This document shows positions 7,478 to 60,828 of a stretch of DNA of 64,000 nt, piece after piece (position 1 is the first letter of the stretch; each line of letters starts with the position of its first letter). A program made the translations under genes and the position numbers. The notes under the pieces are model-generated. The model made no database searches and had not been told where the DNA came from. It was given only the letters and a program-made list of their open reading frames with translations. The stretch comes from Flavobacterium terrisoli (GTDB lineage: Bacteria; Bacteroidota; Bacteroidia; Flavobacteriales; Flavobacteriaceae), in assembly GCF_030167905.1 (NCBI RefSeq), contig NZ_JARGNA010000003.1, positions 310,001 to 374,000 of the forward strand. The letters are read 5' to 3'.

Positions 7478-8478
7478 CAGAGATAGTCAAGGAATCACCG
7501 GCATTTACCCAACTAACCGACTTGGCGGCAGAACGCCTGGGCGGAAAAGTATTGTATGCGACCGATGATTTTTTTGCCGAAAAAGAGAATTTGATTTTAC
7601 CAACGCGTGGTGTGTTCATCACCGACAAATATACCGACCGTGGCAAATGGATGGACGGCTGGGAAAGCCGCAGAAAAAGAACGCCTGGACACGATTGGGC
7701 TGTTATTCAATTGGCGACTTCGGGAAAAATTACCGGCTTTGATATTGACACCAATTTCTTTTTGGGGAATCATCCACCACATGCTTCGATTGAAGCAATC
7801 AACATTTCCAATGCAGAAGGAATTACCGATTGGGAGAATTTAGCATGGAAAGAGATTTTGCCAAAATCCCATTTGGATGCCGGTTCGCAGAATTTCTACG
7901 AATGTGAAAGCGATGAAATTTTCACGCATTTGCGTTTGCACATTTATCCTGATGGTGGCGTAGCACGTTTCCGGGTTTACGGAGAAGTCTTTAAAAACTG
8001 GGATGCGGTTTCCACTTCACAGGAATTGGATTTGGCTGCTGCGATTAATGGCGGTCAGGCGATTGCCTGCAACGATATGTTTTTTAGTGCGATGAGCAAT
8101 TTGATTATGCCCAATCGCGGTGCCAATATGGGAGACGGCTGGGAGACCAAAAGAAACAGAACACCTAATAATCGTGATTGGGTGATTTTGAAATTAGCCC
8201 ACAAAGGAATTGTGGATAGAATCATAGTCGATACCTGTCATTTTAAAGGCAATTATCCTGATAGTTGTTCGATTGAAGCTTGTGTTTCAGAAACTGACGA
8301 TGTTGTAAATAGTACCGATTGGAAAACTTTATTACCCCAACAAAAATTGAGTGCTGATCATATTCATGAATTTATTTCCGAAGTAAATGCTTTGGGAACG
8401 ATCACGCATATTCGTTTGAATATTTTTCCTGATGGTGGCGTAAGCCGATTAAGAATCTTTGGTAAAATCAGTAAATAG
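7459..8478 (+). CDS. alc: Allantoicase
   Basis: The 339-residue protein is built of two similar halves, as in known allantoicases: GKWMDGWESRRKRTPGHDW in the first and MGDGWETKRNRTPNNRDW in the second, each followed by an IDTNFFLGNHPP or VDTCHFKGNYPD strand. It cleaves allantoate to ureidoglycolate and urea. Its start overlaps the allantoinase end by 19 bases, and its TAG shares one G with the GTG start of the next gene, so translation is tightly coupled. No ureidoglycolate lyase gene follows. Confidence 0.93.
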   Translation: MAFAKVTEIVKESPAFTQLTDLAAERLGGKVLYATDDFFAEKENLILPTRGVFITDKYTDRGKWMDGWESRRKRTPGHDWAVIQLATSGKITGFDIDTNFFLGNHPPHASIEAINISNAEGITDWENLAWKEILPKSHLDAGSQNFYECESDEIFTHLRLHIYPDGGVARFRVYGEVFKNWDAVSTSQELDLAAAINGGQAIACNDMFFSAMSNLIMPNRGANMGDGWETKRNRTPNNRDWVILKLAHKGIVDRIIVDTCHFKGNYPDSCSIEACVSETDDVVNSTDWKTLLPQQKLSADHIHEFISEVNALGTITHIRLNIFPDGGVSRLRIFGKISK

Positions 8479-54319: not shown

Positions 54320-54670
54320 TTAAACCAAACCCAATTCCTTTTTAATCTTAAGCGATAGTTTTTCTTTGACTAATTTATACGATTGTTGAGTATAATGTTC
54401 CCATTCCTTAGCCGAGAGTGTGTTGATGTCTTCCACCAAAACCCATTTGTATTTGGCCACATAAGGCGCAGGTTTGATTCCGGTTCGGGTGTTCATTTCT
54501 TCAAATTCTTCTTCCAGAACCTTGAATGAAGCTGAAGTTGGCGATTCATTCAAACCAACGACACAAAACATTTTTCCGCCAATGCAAAAACACAAATCGT
54601 TATGCCACTTGATATCTTCAGTGACGTGAGGTAATTGGTTGCAAATGGCTTGGAGTTCTTCGATGTTCAT
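54320..54670 (-). CDS. MmcQ/YjbR family protein
   Basis: The 116-residue protein has CNQLPHVTEDIKWHNDLCFCIGGKMFCV, here split as LPHVTEDIKWHNDL and FCIGGKMFCVVGL, and APYVAKYKWVLVED, typical of the MmcQ/YjbR double-wing family. It is thought to bind DNA; its target is unknown. It is divergent from the TonB receptor, whose repeats lie in the 120-base gap. Confidence 0.85.
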   Translation of the reverse strand: MNIEELQAICNQLPHVTEDIKWHNDLCFCIGGKMFCVVGLNESPTSASFKVLEEEFEEMNTRTGIKPAPYVAKYKWVLVEDINTLSAKEWEHYTQQSYKLVKEKLSLKIKKELGLV

Positions 54671-54700
54671 CTGTTTTGATTTTCTTTAGACTGTAAATTT

Positions 54701-54748
54701 ACAATTCATCCCATCAATATAACAATTCGGTAAACTTAAATTTCATAG
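54701..54748 (+). promoter_or_regulatory. LytTR-type direct repeat upstream of the TonB receptor gene
   Basis: ACAATTCAT at 54701-54709 and ACAATTCGG at 54722-54730 have their starts 21 bp apart, two helix turns. Similarity to 57003-57050 continues through GGTAAACTTAAATTTCATAG. A LytTR regulator gene closes the downstream operon. A -7-like TATCCTTTG lies at 54752-54760. Confidence 0.6.
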
Positions 54749-54790
54749 TTTTATCCTTTGTCGGAAGTTTGCTTCATCAAAACAAAACCA

Positions 54791-56998
54791 ATGAAATCGG
54801 AGATTCACGAACACAGAAAAAAAACAATAAGCAAAAGAGTGAGTAATGCAACAATTTGCACTTTTTTACTTTTCTTAATTGCTTTAAACAGCAATGCACA
54901 ACAGATTATTTCGGGTAAAGTACTTGATGAAAAAAGCAAACCAATCGCCGGCGCCAATATCTTTATTGATGGCACTTACGATGGTGGTTCCACCGATGAA
55001 AAGGGTGAATTCAAATTTACCACAACCGCCAAAGGCAATCAGATTTTGGTCATCAGCTTTTTGACTTATGAAACGCTGAAAGTCACGATTGAGATAGCAA
55101 CTTGCCAAAACAAATCATTCAAACTCAAAGAAAGTGTCAACACACTCGATGCGGTGATTGTTACCGCCGGAACGTTTGATGCCGGAGATAAAGCCAGGGT
55201 TTCTGTCTTGAAACCATTGGATATTGTAACTACAGCCGGAGCGATGGGCGATATTGTTTCGGCTTTGCAAACCTTACCCGGAACACAAACGGTAGGTGAA
55301 GACGGTCGATTGTTTGTTCGTGGTGGTGAAGCCGATGAAACCCAAACGTTTGTGGATGGGATTCGCGTGGCCCAACCTTATGGCGCAACAACCGCGAATG
55401 TGCCAACACGTGGACGCTTTTCTCCGTTTTTATTTAGCGGAATGTCATTTTCGACCGGTGGTTATTCTGCCGAATATGGCGAAGCGTTATCGAGTGTTTT
55501 GTTGTTGAATACCCAAGATGAAGCGACCGAAGAGAAAACCGATATTTCATTGATGTCGGTTGGATTAGGTTTGGCCAATACCCAAAAATGGAAAAACAAT
55601 TCGTTGAGTTTTAATACCGCCTATATCAATTTGGAACCCTATCAAAAAGTATTTCCGCAACGCGCCGATTGGAACAAACCTTTTCAGTCGCTTTCGGGTG
55701 AAGCGGTTTACAGACACAGTTTTACCAATGGTATGTTCAAACTGTACGCTGCTTTTGATGCGTCGCAATTTGACATCAACAGCGAATCCATCAACAATCC
55801 CGATAAAATCAGAGTGGATTTGGATAACAATAATTTCTATCTGAATTCGTCCTATAAAGGCAACTTTGGTTCGCAATGGCAATTGTTTACCGGATTGAGT
55901 TATGGCTACAGCCAAAATAAAATCGGCTTGGATTTGGACAAAGTATCCAATTTGGAACATTCTTCCCATCTGAAATTAAAACTGAAAAAGTCTTTTTCCG
56001 ACAGGGTAAAGTTGTCTTTTGGTGGAGATTATTTCATTACCCAATTTGACGAAGATTTCAAGCAATACCAAGGCGATACGTTCAGCAGTGGTTATAACGC
56101 GAACATCGCGGCATTCTTCACCGAAGCGGATATTTTCTTCTCTAAAAAGTTTGCCATAAAAGTGGGTGCCAGACTATCCAACAATGATTTGCTGGAGGAA
56201 ACGGTGGTTTCTCCGAGAGCATCATTGGCCTATAAAGTTTCCAAAAACGGTCAGTTTTCGTTTGCCTACGGCAGTTTTACCCAAGCGCCAAGACAAGACT
56301 ATTTGAAATACGCCGATTATCTGGAAAGTGAAAAAGCGCAACACTATATCCTGAACTACCAATATAGCAAAGACCGAAGAACTTTCCGTTCTGAGATTTA
56401 TTTAAAGGAATATTCCGATTTGGTAAAATATGATACCGAAGCTTCTGAATTTGATACCAATTTCAGCAACACGGGAACAGGTTATGCCAGAGGTTTGGAT
56501 ATTTTTTGGCGCGACAATAAAACCATCAAAAATGTGGAATACTGGATTTCCTATTCCTATATCGACACGCAAAGAAACTATAAAAATTTCACGGCTGAAG
56601 TAACACCGAGTTTTGTGGCCAATCACAGTTTGAGTGTTGTAAGCAAATGGTGGATCAACAAATTAAAATCGCAGTTGAGTGTGACCAATTCGTTCACGAC
56701 CGGAAGACCATACAACAATCCGAATGAGGCAGAGTTTATGAACGGCAAAACCAAAGGCTACAATAATTTGAGTTTGGGCTGGGCTTATCTGATGTCACAA
56801 CAAAAGATTTTGTATTTTTCAGTATCGAATGTATTGGGAACAGCCAATGTTTTTGGGTATGAATATGCCAATTCACCAAATCCCGATGGCGTGTACAACC
56901 GAAGAACCATCAGGCCAACAGCAGATCAGTTTTTCTTTGTAGGTTTCTTTTGGACGATTAGTGAGAATAAGAAGGACAATCAGTTGGATAACCTTTAA
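54791..56998 (+). CDS. TonB-dependent receptor with carboxypeptidase-regulatory-like domain
   Basis: From ATG 54791 the protein is 735 residues. After a signal peptide comes an N-terminal CarboxypepD_reg-like domain (IISGKVLDEKSKPIAGANIF; about 35-115), a plug (VSALQTLPGTQTVGEDGRLF, VRGGEADETQTFVDGI) and a 22-strand barrel to the C-terminal FVGFFWTI. No SusD-like partner is next to it. The substrate is unknown. An upstream TTG at 54758 would add 11 residues with no hydrophobic start, so ATG is preferred. A direct repeat shared with the kinase operon precedes it. Confidence 0.9.
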   Translation: MKSEIHEHRKKTISKRVSNATICTFLLFLIALNSNAQQIISGKVLDEKSKPIAGANIFIDGTYDGGSTDEKGEFKFTTTAKGNQILVISFLTYETLKVTIEIATCQNKSFKLKESVNTLDAVIVTAGTFDAGDKARVSVLKPLDIVTTAGAMGDIVSALQTLPGTQTVGEDGRLFVRGGEADETQTFVDGIRVAQPYGATTANVPTRGRFSPFLFSGMSFSTGGYSAEYGEALSSVLLLNTQDEATEEKTDISLMSVGLGLANTQKWKNNSLSFNTAYINLEPYQKVFPQRADWNKPFQSLSGEAVYRHSFTNGMFKLYAAFDASQFDINSESINNPDKIRVDLDNNNFYLNSSYKGNFGSQWQLFTGLSYGYSQNKIGLDLDKVSNLEHSSHLKLKLKKSFSDRVKLSFGGDYFITQFDEDFKQYQGDTFSSGYNANIAAFFTEADIFFSKKFAIKVGARLSNNDLLEETVVSPRASLAYKVSKNGQFSFAYGSFTQAPRQDYLKYADYLESEKAQHYILNYQYSKDRRTFRSEIYLKEYSDLVKYDTEASEFDTNFSNTGTGYARGLDIFWRDNKTIKNVEYWISYSYIDTQRNYKNFTAEVTPSFVANHSLSVVSKWWINKLKSQLSVTNSFTTGRPYNNPNEAEFMNGKTKGYNNLSLGWAYLMSQQKILYFSVSNVLGTANVFGYEYANSPNPDGVYNRRTIRPTADQFFFVGFFWTISENKKDNQLDNL

Positions 56999-57002
56999 AA
57001 GA

Positions 57003-57073
57003 ACAATTCATCCATCAAAAATGACAGTTCGGTAAGTATAAGTTTTACAGCAAATAAAACCGCGATACTTTTG
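57003..57073 (+). promoter_or_regulatory. LytTR-type direct repeat and -7 box upstream of the kinase operon
   Basis: ACAATTCAT (57003-57011) and ACAGTTCGG (57024-57032), starts 21 bp apart, match the pair at 54701-54730, and similarity extends to about 57050. TACTTTTG at 57066-57073 fits TAnnTTTG. ACAGTT is close to the half-site word reported for other LytTR proteins. Confidence 0.6.
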
Positions 57074-57971: not shown

Positions 57972-59309
57972 ATGAAACCATTGATAAAAGAAATCCCAAG
58001 AGCAATCATTTTATCGGTCACTATCTTTTTAGTGCTGCAATTGATTCGGTTGATTACGGGAAACCAGATTCACTTCGATGCTGCTTTGTTGAGCAACTTT
58101 GGCTATACGATGTTGTATGGACTTTCGTTATACATGGCCAATGCAATGCTTTTCATGTATTTGGATCGCGTTTTCAAAGCCGACAGATTTACGCCGAAAA
58201 GAATATTTCTTGGTTTTACCCTGTCATTTCTGATTTCAATTGTCGTTATTTTTTTACTGAGGGTTTTTGAAGATGTAATTGTTGAAGGAAGATCGTTTGC
58301 CACTTTTTTCAACAACGAATCGTTTAGCAATTACCTGGTTTCAATCATCATAACGTTCATTGTCACCTTGGCATTTCATGCGATTTACTTCTATAAGGCT
58401 TATGCCGAAAGCAAAGTCAAAGAGCAAAAAGTTATCGCCGGAACGGCTTCGGCACAGTTTGAAAGTTTGAAAAACCAAATCGATCCGCATTTCCTGTTCA
58501 ATAGCCTGAATGTATTGAGTTCGCTTATAGAGGAAAATCCGGATAACGCACAAAAATTCACGACTTCACTGTCTAAAATCTACCGCTATGTTTTGGAACA
58601 AAAGGACAAAGAGCTGGTTTCAGTGGATGAGGAATTGGCTTTTGCCAAAACCTATATGAACCTGCTCAAAATGCGTTTTGAAAACAGCATCAGCTATGAA
58701 TTACCGGCAGAATTCGGGAATCCGGAGGCTAAAGTCGTGCCTTTATCGCTGCAGCTTTTATTGGAAAACACTATCAAACACAATGTTGCGAGCGAACAAA
58801 AACCATTGCACATCAGGATTTATATCGAGAACAATTACCTGATAGTTGAGAATAATTTACAAAAGAAAGAAGTCCTGCAGGATAGAAAAGGCGTTGGCTT
58901 GCAAAACATCGTCAACCGTTATGCCTTGATTTCGGAACGAAAAGTTTTGGTAGATCAGACCGAAACGGCTTTCAAGGTAAAAATCCCGATTTTAACCAAA
59001 CAAATCGTCATCATGGAAACGAAAAATATATACAACGAAAATATGGCTTATATGAAAGCCAAGGAGAGAGTGGAAAAACTCAAAGGATTCTACGGTAACC
59101 TGATTTCGTACTGTTGTGTGATTCCGTTTTTAATCTTTATCAATCTCAGAACCGGCGGATTTCAATGGTTTTGGTTCCCAATGTTCGGCTGGGGAATGGG
59201 CTTGACGTTTCACGCTCTGGAAACCTTTGGCTATGGAAAATCATGGGAAGAGAGAAAGATCCAGGAGATTTTGAATAAGGAAGACAACAAAAACCAAAAA
59301 TGGAGTTAG
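57972..59309 (+). CDS. LytS-type sensor histidine kinase with C-terminal 2TM domain
   Basis: The 445-residue protein has four membrane helices at residues about 10-140, then a His_kinase domain with QIDPHFLFNSLNVL (phospho-acceptor H) and an HATPase end with KGVGLQNIVNRYALI. After a linker (TKQIVIMETKN) it carries a 2TM domain in residues about 355-445: RVEKLKGFYGNLISYC, then GWGMGLTFHALETFGYGKSW and EERKIQEIL. The same domain recurs in the next two genes. The cognate regulator is the LytTR protein downstream. A fused 2TM part suggests the kinase senses with these membrane partners. Confidence 0.9.
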   Translation: MKPLIKEIPRAIILSVTIFLVLQLIRLITGNQIHFDAALLSNFGYTMLYGLSLYMANAMLFMYLDRVFKADRFTPKRIFLGFTLSFLISIVVIFLLRVFEDVIVEGRSFATFFNNESFSNYLVSIIITFIVTLAFHAIYFYKAYAESKVKEQKVIAGTASAQFESLKNQIDPHFLFNSLNVLSSLIEENPDNAQKFTTSLSKIYRYVLEQKDKELVSVDEELAFAKTYMNLLKMRFENSISYELPAEFGNPEAKVVPLSLQLLLENTIKHNVASEQKPLHIRIYIENNYLIVENNLQKKEVLQDRKGVGLQNIVNRYALISERKVLVDQTETAFKVKIPILTKQIVIMETKNIYNENMAYMKAKERVEKLKGFYGNLISYCCVIPFLIFINLRTGGFQWFWFPMFGWGMGLTFHALETFGYGKSWEERKIQEILNKEDNKNQKWS

Positions 59310-59311
59310 CC

Positions 59312-59611
59312 ATGGAAACAAACAACGACTTCGAAAGATACCAACGCGCCAAAAAACAGGTAGAAAAAATCAAAGGGTTTTACACGCATTTGGCGGTTTA
59401 TATAGTTGTTATGGCAGGCTTGATTTATCTCAATCTGAGGTATACACCACAGTATTTGTGGTTTCTCTGGACCTTTGTAAGTTGGGGAATTGGATTGCTT
59501 TTTCATGCCGCGCTTATTTATAATGTCTTTTCATTCTTGGGAAAAGACTGGGAAGAAAGAAAAATTAAACAATTCATGGACGAAGAAAATAAAAGAAATA
59601 AATTTGAATAG
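59312..59611 (+). CDS. 2TM domain protein (first stand-alone copy)
   Basis: The 99-residue protein has the 2TM pattern: RAKKQVEKIKGFYTHLAVY, two hydrophobic helices, FVSWGIGLLFHAAL and DWEERKIKQFM. It aligns over its whole length with the C-terminal part of the kinase and the next gene. ATG 59300 is also possible and overlaps the kinase stop; the later ATG matches the paralogues' starts better. Confidence 0.82.
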   Translation: METNNDFERYQRAKKQVEKIKGFYTHLAVYIVVMAGLIYLNLRYTPQYLWFLWTFVSWGIGLLFHAALIYNVFSFLGKDWEERKIKQFMDEENKRNKFE

Positions 59612-59613
59612 TT

Positions 59614-59922
59614 ATGCTAAACGAAGACGAAATTAAATACCAGGAAGCCGCCAAACGCGTGAAGAGAATCAAAGGATTTTATACGCATGCCATAGTTTAT
59701 GTGGTGATTAATATTATGATCATCATTGCGAAAATGCAATTTGGTGATAATGGACATTGGAGTTTTGAATTGAGACATTTTTCCACGGCTTTATTTTGGG
59801 GAATCGGTTTAATAGCGCACGGCATGTCGGTTTTTATGCCAGGCATTATCCTGGGTAAAAACTGGGAAGATAAAAAGATTAAGGAATTGATGGAGAAGGA
59901 AAAGAATAATAAATGGGAATAA
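59614..59922 (+). CDS. 2TM domain protein (second stand-alone copy)
   Basis: The 102-residue protein repeats the pattern: AAKRVKRIKGFYTHAIVY, two helices, ALFWGIGLIAHGMSVF and NWEDKKIKELM. The ATG is two bases after the previous stop (TAGTTATG arrangement), so the two are coupled. It is the third 2TM unit in a row, and a stretch of repeats separates it from the regulator gene. Confidence 0.85.
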   Translation: MLNEDEIKYQEAAKRVKRIKGFYTHAIVYVVINIMIIIAKMQFGDNGHWSFELRHFSTALFWGIGLIAHGMSVFMPGIILGKNWEDKKIKELMEKEKNNKWE

Positions 59923-60017: not shown

Positions 60018-60041
60018 GGAGAATGTCCAGTGGACATTCGG
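60018..60041 (+). repeat. 24-bp palindromic element (copy 2)
   Basis: GGA-GAATGTCC-AGT-GGACATTC-GG. Compared with 47857-47880 (minus strand) only the innermost pair differs, C-G here and T-A there, which keeps the stem. It lies between the 2TM and LytTR genes, close to the start of the latter. Confidence 0.55.
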
Positions 60042-60072
60042 AACTAATATGACCTCAATTAGCAAAAGGAAA

Positions 60073-60828
60073 ATGAATATTATCATAATAGAAGACGAGA
60101 AGCCCGCCGCAAGACTGCTCCAACGCAAAGTCGAAAAACTCGGCCTGCAGGTCAATACCCTGTTGCATTCTGTAGAAGAATCGATTCATTGGTTCAATTC
60201 CAATACGCATCCCGATTTGATTTTTCTGGACATCCAGTTGTCTGATGGTTTGTCGTTTGAAATCTTTGAAAATATCGATATCAAAAGCGCGGTGATTTTT
60301 ACCACGGCCTATGACGAATACGCCTTGCGTGCGTTCAAGCTGAACAGTATTGATTATTTGTTGAAACCGATTGACGAAGATGATTTGGAAACTGCGGTCA
60401 ATAAATTCAAGACGAGAAATATGGCGGCGCCCAATCTTTCGCTCGACTTCGAAATGATCAAGAAAATGTTGGTCAACCCGATTGACAGAGTGTATAAAAA
60501 GCGCTTCACCATCAAAATGGGACAGCAACTCAAGATGATTAACATTGAGGAAGTCGAATGTTTCTACAGCGAAAACAAAGGCACTTATATCCATACGCTG
60601 GACAACCGTGATTACTTATTGGACATCACTTTGGAACAACTCGAAACCGAACTCGATCCGGCAGATTTCTACCGTGTGTCGCGCAAATTCATCATCCCGA
60701 TGAAAACCATCAAAGAGATCCAACTCCACAGCAATTCAAGACTGAAAGTGATTTTACCGACCTACAAAGACGATGAGGTGATTGTGGCAAGAGAAAGAGT
60801 GAATGATTTTAAGGAATGGTTGGGGTAA
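60073..60828 (+). CDS. LytTR-family response regulator
   Basis: From ATG 60073 the protein is 251 residues. The receiver domain (about 1-115) has IIIIEDEKPAARLL, phospho-acceptor aspartate in DLIFLDIQLSDG and the lysine of YLLKPI. The LytTR DNA-binding domain (about 150-250) has FTIKMGQQLKMINIEEVECF, SENKGTYIHTLDNRDYLLD and FYRVSRKFIIPMKTIKEI. An earlier ATG at 60049 would add eight polar residues. Its partner is the LytS-type kinase. The direct repeats at 54701 and 57003 are candidate sites. It converges on a minus-strand gene three bases later. Confidence 0.9.
   Translation: MNIIIIEDEKPAARLLQRKVEKLGLQVNTLLHSVEESIHWFNSNTHPDLIFLDIQLSDGLSFEIFENIDIKSAVIFTTAYDEYALRAFKLNSIDYLLKPIDEDDLETAVNKFKTRNMAAPNLSLDFEMIKKMLVNPIDRVYKKRFTIKMGQQLKMINIEEVECFYSENKGTYIHTLDNRDYLLDITLEQLETELDPADFYRVSRKFIIPMKTIKEIQLHSNSRLKVILPTYKDDEVIVARERVNDFKEWLG

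Follow-up and report, generated by a model that had tools for sequence, protein, structure and literature searches.

The window analysed here is a stretch of 64,000 nucleotides (nt) of Flavobacterium terrisoli (contig NZ_JARGNA010000003.1, positions 310,001 to 374,000). It contains two similar pairs of 9-bp direct repeats, one upstream of a gene for a TonB-dependent receptor and one upstream of a row of genes that includes a LytS-type histidine kinase and a LytTR response regulator. The features of this locus are listed below by their position in the window; TSS stands for transcription start site and aa for amino acids.

54701..54730, plus strand: operator 1, predicted LytTR-type direct repeats with the half-sites ACAATTCAT (54701-54709) and ACAATTCGG (54722-54730), predicted to lie at -75..-67 and -54..-46; position weight matrix score 60.8
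54741-54742, plus strand: T's at the -35 position of predicted promoter 1; predicted TSS 54776
54764..54771, plus strand: putative -7 box of promoter 1, GAAGTTTG (compare TAnnTTTG), placed at -12..-5 after a passage in PMC9723704
54791..56998, plus strand: TonB-dependent receptor with CarboxypepD_reg-like domain, plug and barrel (Pfam), HusB-like by neighbourhood
57003..57032, plus strand: operator 2, predicted repeats with the half-sites ACAATTCAT (57003-57011) and ACAGTTCGG (57024-57032); position weight matrix score 67.9
57043-57044, plus strand: T's at the -35 position of predicted promoter 2; predicted TSS 57078
57066..57073, plus strand: putative -7 box of promoter 2, TACTTTTG, placed after the same passage in PMC9723704
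57119..57739, plus strand: secreted HusA-family protein (haemophore-like, TPR-like fold), 206 aa
57772..57951, plus strand: small hydrophobic open reading frame (ORF), 59 aa
57972..59309, plus strand: LytS-type histidine kinase with C-terminal 2TM domain; N-terminal membrane segments by hydropathy only
59300..59611, plus strand: 2TM-domain protein (Pfam)
59614..59922, plus strand: second 2TM-domain protein (Pfam)
60073..60828, plus strand: response regulator with receiver and LytTR DNA-binding domains (Pfam)

Eight proteins of the locus were scanned against Pfam. The kinase matched PF06580 (His_kinase, LytS/AlgZ; E 1.1e-25). A first-pass annotation, made from the sequence without database searches, had placed a LytTR gene at the end of the operon, and the regulator found there matched PF00072 (E 1.2e-14) and PF04397 (E 2.8e-21). 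The ORF list starts this gene at 60049; in most relatives the alignment opens within a few residues of 60073. For the receptor we preferred the ATG at 54791, since the listed TTG start at 54758 precedes the predicted TSS. Four Pfam families were detected in the receptor (E <= 0.001), STN not among them, and none of the eight scanned proteins was a FecR or ECF sigma factor, a search that did not extend to other genes of the genome. The structure model of the receptor has a mean pLDDT of 66.6 with a poorly modelled plug, and its best fold match, BtuB at 15% identity, is generic and gives no substrate.

Both repeat pairs have the 21-bp start spacing that the first-pass annotation had reported, exactly at the coordinates listed above. 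The similarity, which it had followed for about 18 bp further, is part of a 58-nt direct repeat without gaps (54691-54748 and 56993-57050, 71% identity) that spans both operators. The repeats also appear to fit the published 9-mer LytTR consensus. The same annotation had proposed a genome scan for pairs at this spacing. In the whole genome (3.5 Mb, 16 contigs), searched with the reversed pattern as control, the bare pair ACARTTC-N14-ACARTTC occurs exactly three times (control 0). The extended pair at up to three mismatches detected operators 1 and 2 without mismatch and one further match with three (control 0), and with the combined operator and promoter pattern, again at up to three mismatches, operators 1 and 2 were the sole matches. 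The third exact ACAATTC pair with 21-bp spacing lies about 90 bp before a lipoprotein gene on contig C1 (locus L001, 1501-1528, minus strand); it has no -7 box at +64 and is probably a decoy. A wider regulon in this genome was considered and rejected: a search with two mismatches gave 227 matches against 108 in the control and was too loose, and the stricter searches leave operators 1 and 2 and the single match with three mismatches.

To describe the conservation of the sites, loci of 80 Flavobacterium-type relatives were fetched via the kinase (the best 80 of 596 confirmed), several of which are cut by contig ends. The order receptor, HusA-like protein, kinase, 2TM, 2TM and regulator is complete in 66 of these loci, and HusA-like protein, kinase and regulator follow in order in 76. 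At up to three mismatches the receptor-side site was present in all 65 evaluable loci (of the other 15, 13 have the gene out of reach and two lie at the edge of a contig). For the HusA-like side the figure is 73 of 74 (three loci lack the gene, and three again lie at an edge). The sole locus missed, L082, has a partial gene match and an exact site at 7657. A weight matrix trained partly on these 80 loci detected both sites in 65, the HusA-like site in 73 and a site before the kinase in four, and scored no further place in the 80 loci above zero. The exact site ACARYTCATC-N11-ACARYTCRGT was found in 69 of 150 sampled genomes of the genus, with at most two per genome (control 0); the other 81 lack it in this search, which allowed exact matches only. 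Across Flavobacteriaceae it was detected in 64 of 299 genomes (59 of 236 genera; control 0), and at class level site plus promoter at up to one mismatch occurred in nine of 295 genomes, eight of them Flavobacteriaceae and one other (control 0).

Other parts of the neighbourhood vary. Nine of the 80 loci have a homologue of the 59-aa ORF, placed like it between the genes for the HusA-like protein and the kinase. A YjbR-family gene (window 54320-54670, minus strand) is divergent from the receptor gene, with homologues near in two of the 80 loci (L084 and L107). The gap that separates the regulator gene from the second 2TM gene contains a perfect 9-bp inverted repeat with a 1-nt loop, GAATGTCCA-G-TGGACATTC (60021-60039); it does not seem to belong to the conserved circuit, the only exact copy among 228 loci being in L031, which is the same place. 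In L142 (10623-12571) six separate 2TM-domain matches stand between kinase and regulator, compared with two in the window.

The distance between repeats and promoter is nearly fixed. The fetched loci of relatives contain 158 distinct exact sites, chosen without use of the promoter sequence. AnnTTT(G/A) begins at +64 from the site start in 156 of them, with a mean of 1.6 at other offsets, and the strict form AnnTTTG in 132. The A at +64 and the TTT at +67 to +69 are invariant in the receptor set (60 sequences, up to two mismatches) and in the HusA-like set (73); a set of 32 unlinked sites has the same bases, with the third T at 0.97. T at +40 is invariant in all three sets, and at base +75, the predicted TSS, the two operon sets have A with frequencies of 0.98 and 0.95. 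When half-sites 8-45 nt apart were allowed upstream of both genes, 84 exact pairs had a spacing of 21 nt and one of 25 nt. According to a passage in PMC9723704, the sigma-A box of flavobacteria, TAnnTTTG, spans -12..-5. Counted from there, the TSS would fall at +75 and the -35 position at +40, and the repeats would cover -75..-67 and -54..-46. Excerpts of two papers describe LytTR-autoregulated operons with 9-bp repeats that are mostly 12 bp apart and strongly biased to 10 bp upstream of -35 (PMC6193735), and a pair of imperfect repeats with about 12 bp between them as a shared feature of LytTR regulators (PMC4064291). The operators have this geometry of LytTR-activated promoters: 9-12-9 repeats, then 10 bp, then the -35 position.

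Nine LytTR matches were found in the window genome, and around the eight others (about 1.5 kb) no site scores higher than 0, the best reaching -6.9. Regulators matching that of the operon (E <= 1e-60) are present in 228 of the 299 family genomes. These include all 64 motif-bearing genomes, and the motif was detected in none of the 71 regulator-negative ones (Fisher 3e-9, a value that ignores relatedness and genome size, with the lists compared by eye). The LytTR domain motif R(V/I)SRK(F/Y) occurs in 74 of 80 orthologues; the paralogues have R(I/V)HxS. One genome, G279, has a split locus: its receptor and HusA-like genes lie 2.2 Mb from its kinase and regulator genes on a 2.59-Mb contig (about 0.4 Mb if the contig is a circle), and each part has a site.

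A second comparison covered the class. A profile of the HusA-like protein matched 64 of 395 Bacteroidia genomes, from which 30 loci were picked across families, non-randomly and with four from Flavobacteriaceae. The receptor gene directly precedes the HusA-like gene in 25 of the 30 loci examined, and a kinase/LytTR pair adjoins it in 13. Outside Flavobacteriaceae (26 loci), the site was detected in eight of nine loci with an adjacent orthologous regulator and in none of 17 without (p 5.8e-6); the matrix was trained on Flavobacteriaceae sites only, and only adjacent regulators were scored. All of these class-level sites precede a receptor or HusA-like gene. Counting any adjacent LytTR pair gave 8/11 versus 0/15 (p 1e-4), and one row per taxonomic family and regulator state gave 6/7 versus 0/10 (p 5.7e-4). 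DUF2141 promoters, with one best locus per genome, have the site in 11 of 17 regulator-positive and one of five regulator-negative genomes; the difference runs in the expected direction, but the numbers are too small for a decision, and one of the 11, G152, had itself served to train the matrix.

The secreted 206-aa protein had no Pfam match. Its AlphaFold2 (AF2) model (pLDDT 89.7) consists of nine helices and shows the nine-helix right-handed TPR-like superhelix of the HusA family. The best Foldseek match was HusA of Porphyromonas gingivalis (6bqs; E 1e-6, TM 0.77/0.79), with a Z score of 20.8 and a root-mean-square deviation of 3.1 over 189 residues; the next entry reached 16.0. At the sequence level profile A1 matched 6bqs with E 5.7e-17 over profile positions 41-206 of 206, at about 21% identity to HusA. 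The protein is thus a member of the HusA haemophore-like family, and its first description as a secreted TPR-like protein needs this correction. According to passages in PMC6173696, HusA binds porphyrin and has a TPR-like fold, its TonB receptor is HusB, and homologues are limited to Bacteroidetes; a hus operon of P. gingivalis, whose genes are said to respond to iron and haem, is described in a part of PMC10100897. Since the secreted protein belongs to the HusA family, receptor and secreted protein look like a HusAB-type acquisition pair. Among the equivalents of the HusA groove in the Flavobacterium set, mapped through an alignment of 21% identity, F80 and P126 are conserved in 30/30 and M116 in 24/30 sequences. 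We assign a haem- or porphyrin-like ligand to the pair only tentatively, with somewhat more doubt than confidence. Plasmid records contained no match to the HusA-like protein. Two literature leads were discarded: RhuH is, according to a passage in PMC11967795, a haemophore of another fold, and 'HusA' in PMC8444969 is an author name.

Sites also occur before other genes in Flavobacteriaceae. We fetched 69 loci around exact sites from the genus and family samples, which contain 76 exact sites. The receptor, HusA-like or kinase gene of the operon starts within 1500 nt of 41 of them; 16 precede an ORF with a DUF2141 sequence signature and five one with a DUF2807 signature. Pfam searches with nine downstream protein pieces revealed one each of DUF2807, RDD, DUF2141, DUF2306, beta-lactamase family, DinB_2 and ABC ATPase; of the remaining two, one matched DUF6624 below the cut-off and one had no match. 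Small secreted DUF2141-type proteins directly behind the operator were seen in other genera (L138, L150, L160, L166, L171, L175, L184, L187, L188 and L190). Four large-genome Flavobacterium have an unlinked protein of 351-352 aa with a hydrophobic N-terminus behind the operator (L124 at 7856, L125 at 8870, L126 at 7291 and L128 at 8190); a 150-aa piece of one of them was the piece without a Pfam match. The phage-shock (PSP) framework was considered as a model and kept as an analogy only: passages in PMC11237479 treat Toastrack (unifying DUF2807 and others) and LytTR in Firmicutes operons, not the window locus.

We consider it likely that the locus encodes a LytS/LytTR circuit that would activate itself together with a HusAB-like receptor/carrier pair. 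The sites, the fixed promoter spacing, their conservation, the co-occurrence with the regulator and the HusA-family membership were computed directly. From the fixed sigma-A spacing, the genus-wide conservation of both sites and the regulator co-occurrence we infer that the repeats are LytTR-type operators, as the first-pass annotation had proposed, and that they would be bound by the operon's own regulator and act in activation rather than repression. In the proposed mechanism the LytS-type kinase, together with 2TM-domain partners, would phosphorylate the LytTR response regulator. Two regulator protomers would bind each 9-12-9 pair just upstream of the -35 position, and the bound regulator would switch on two sigma-A promoters. 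Promoter 1 would drive the TonB-dependent receptor, and promoter 2 the HusA-like protein, kinase, 2TM proteins and regulator; as the regulator itself would be among the genes driven by promoter 2, positive feedback is predicted. Receptor and HusA-like protein may take up a small hydrophobic ligand, for which a tetrapyrrole is the first candidate. The earlier proposal that receptor, secreted protein and signalling genes form one autoregulated unit gains support from spacing, conservation and co-occurrence; the two predicted promoters would make it two transcription units.

Several observations weigh against this reading. An A at the predicted TSS is found in only 0.53 of the unlinked set. The sampled genomes are related, and the regulator-negative ones are often small. 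A DUF2141 gene of G155 is preceded by a degenerate site, although the best match to the regulator in this genome has only 35% identity. In the class comparison the 200-bit cut for an orthologous regulator was set after the scores had been seen, L267 has the regulator and no site, L278 (0.4) and L259 (7.8) are low scorers among the eight positive loci, and the -7 box of L276 is one base off. The W130 equivalent of HusA is G in 29/30 sequences and Y164 falls at an insertion in the profile alignment, and the protein may therefore no longer bind porphyrin. One study of P. gingivalis saw little change of husA itself under iron or haem limitation, according to a passage in PMC10913741, in contrast to the response of hus genes stated in PMC10100897. 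Finally, the DUF2141, DUF2807, RDD, ABC ATPase, beta-lactamase-family, DinB_2 and DUF2306 genes behind sites are unlike porphyrin uptake.

The main rival is a regulon for envelope homeostasis, whose kinase would sense the state of the membrane and in which receptor and HusA-like protein would be among several exported targets rather than parts of an uptake module of their own. It would account for the site before DUF2141 (16/76), DUF2807 (5/76) and, singly, other membrane or exported proteins, for a kinase with predicted membrane segments whose Pfam matches are His_kinase and 2TM only, and for the multiplication of 2TM genes beside the kinase in some genera. In the window genome, however, the sites are confined to the receptor/HusA-like locus, and 41 of the 76 fetched sites lead into the receptor/HusA-like/kinase operon. 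The limit of two exact sites per congener in 150 genomes points the same way, although the surroundings of only a minority of these sites were inspected and in four large-genome congeners one site stands at a different gene. In other families it is the receptor and HusA-like genes that carry the site, other genes not having been searched there. We regard an envelope response as rather unlikely. It is very unlikely that the sites are bound by another regulator, be it one of the other eight LytTR proteins or a non-LytTR factor. Nine LytTR domains in one genome and the degenerate site of G155, which has no close orthologue, would allow it; the co-occurrence in family and class favours the operon's own regulator, no such site lies at the other eight LytTR loci, and R(V/I)SRK(F/Y) distinguishes this LytTR domain from the R(I/V)HxS of its paralogues.

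The first-pass annotation had further suggested that this is perhaps a new surface-signalling system. In such a system the kinase would take its input from the ligand-bearing receptor or from the HusA-like protein. The conserved order of the six genes in 66 of 80 loci, a common layout for sensor/target pairs, fits such outer-membrane-to-kinase signalling. The analysis did not show it: the receptor lacks STN, the scanned neighbours include no FecR or ECF factor, and no computed result ties the receptor to the kinase as its input. Receptor and kinase genes can moreover be unlinked, as in G279, and outside the family 17 of the 26 fetched HusA-like loci lack an orthologous regulator next to them. 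We judge this kind of signalling to be distinctly unlikely. That the repeats are a repressor site or an RNA leader element is extremely unlikely: nothing specific speaks for it, and the whole of each repeat pair precedes both the -35 position and the predicted TSS, with a distance that hardly varies. Beyond the self-activating LytS/LytTR circuit, we advance as an unlikely extension a lineage-wide dedicated one in which an intramembrane LytS-type kinase, with 2TM partners adjusting it, would read out ligand capture by the TonB receptor and the HusA-like carrier at the outer membrane. The response would feed back through a single rigid LytTR/sigma-A promoter code, which in many Flavobacteriaceae would also recruit DUF2141 and DUF2807 surface proteins, and signalling would proceed without anti-sigma or ECF factors.

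For a LytTR regulator the analysis provides a candidate operator/promoter code, ACARYTCATC-N11-ACARYTCRGT with AnnTTT(G/A) at +64. With this code the regulon can be tested directly for a two-component system that is widespread (regulator in 228/299 family genomes). Two groups of proteins of unknown function, 2TM and DUF2141, are thereby connected with a circuit, and for DUF2141 this is a possible lead to what the proteins do. The analysis also suggests that relatives of the HusA/receptor pair, studied in P. gingivalis, are under two-component control in other Bacteroidia.

FecA/FecR/ECF surface signalling combines a receptor with an N-terminal STN domain, an FecR-type anti-sigma factor and an ECF sigma factor. 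The locus in the window shares with it a TonB-dependent receptor gene in a regulated locus and differs in having no STN domain, FecR or ECF sigma factor among the eight scanned proteins. With the Hus system of P. gingivalis it shares a secreted protein of the HusA family and a neighbouring TonB-dependent receptor, the gene order in the window being receptor, then HusA-like. In contrast to Hus, a LytTR two-component system is attached here, and of the groove residues W130 is not conserved and Y164 falls at an insertion. RAYM_RS09735/09740 of Riemerella was rejected as a studied homologue, being an OmpR-type system according to a passage in PMC5399024. The parts of Flavobacterium papers that name LytTR proteins (PMC5395568, PMC10197871, PMC10057207) give no operator, and excerpts from the open-licence literature revealed no description of this circuit or of a Flavobacteriaceae LytTR operator, which is weak evidence of absence.

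The LytTR regulatory systems (LRS) HdrRM and BrsRM resemble the locus in their LytTR regulator, in repeats just upstream of -35, in positive feedback, which for this locus is predicted, and in small membrane proteins within the operon. LRS consist of a LytTR regulator and an inhibitory membrane protein and are described as distinct from two-component systems, whereas kinase and receiver domain are present here. The LytS/LytTR systems of the AgrA, AlgR and PlnC class share a His_kinase-type sensor, a receiver-LytTR regulator and, as predicted here, autoregulation. Two imperfect 9-bp direct repeats, 12 bp apart and just upstream of -35, are likewise common to the locus and to LytTR-activated promoters. 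Unlike that class, the locus in F. terrisoli combines these elements with a flavobacterial sigma-A -7 box, a C-terminal 2TM domain on the kinase, additional 2TM proteins, and a receptor and a HusA-like protein as putative target genes.

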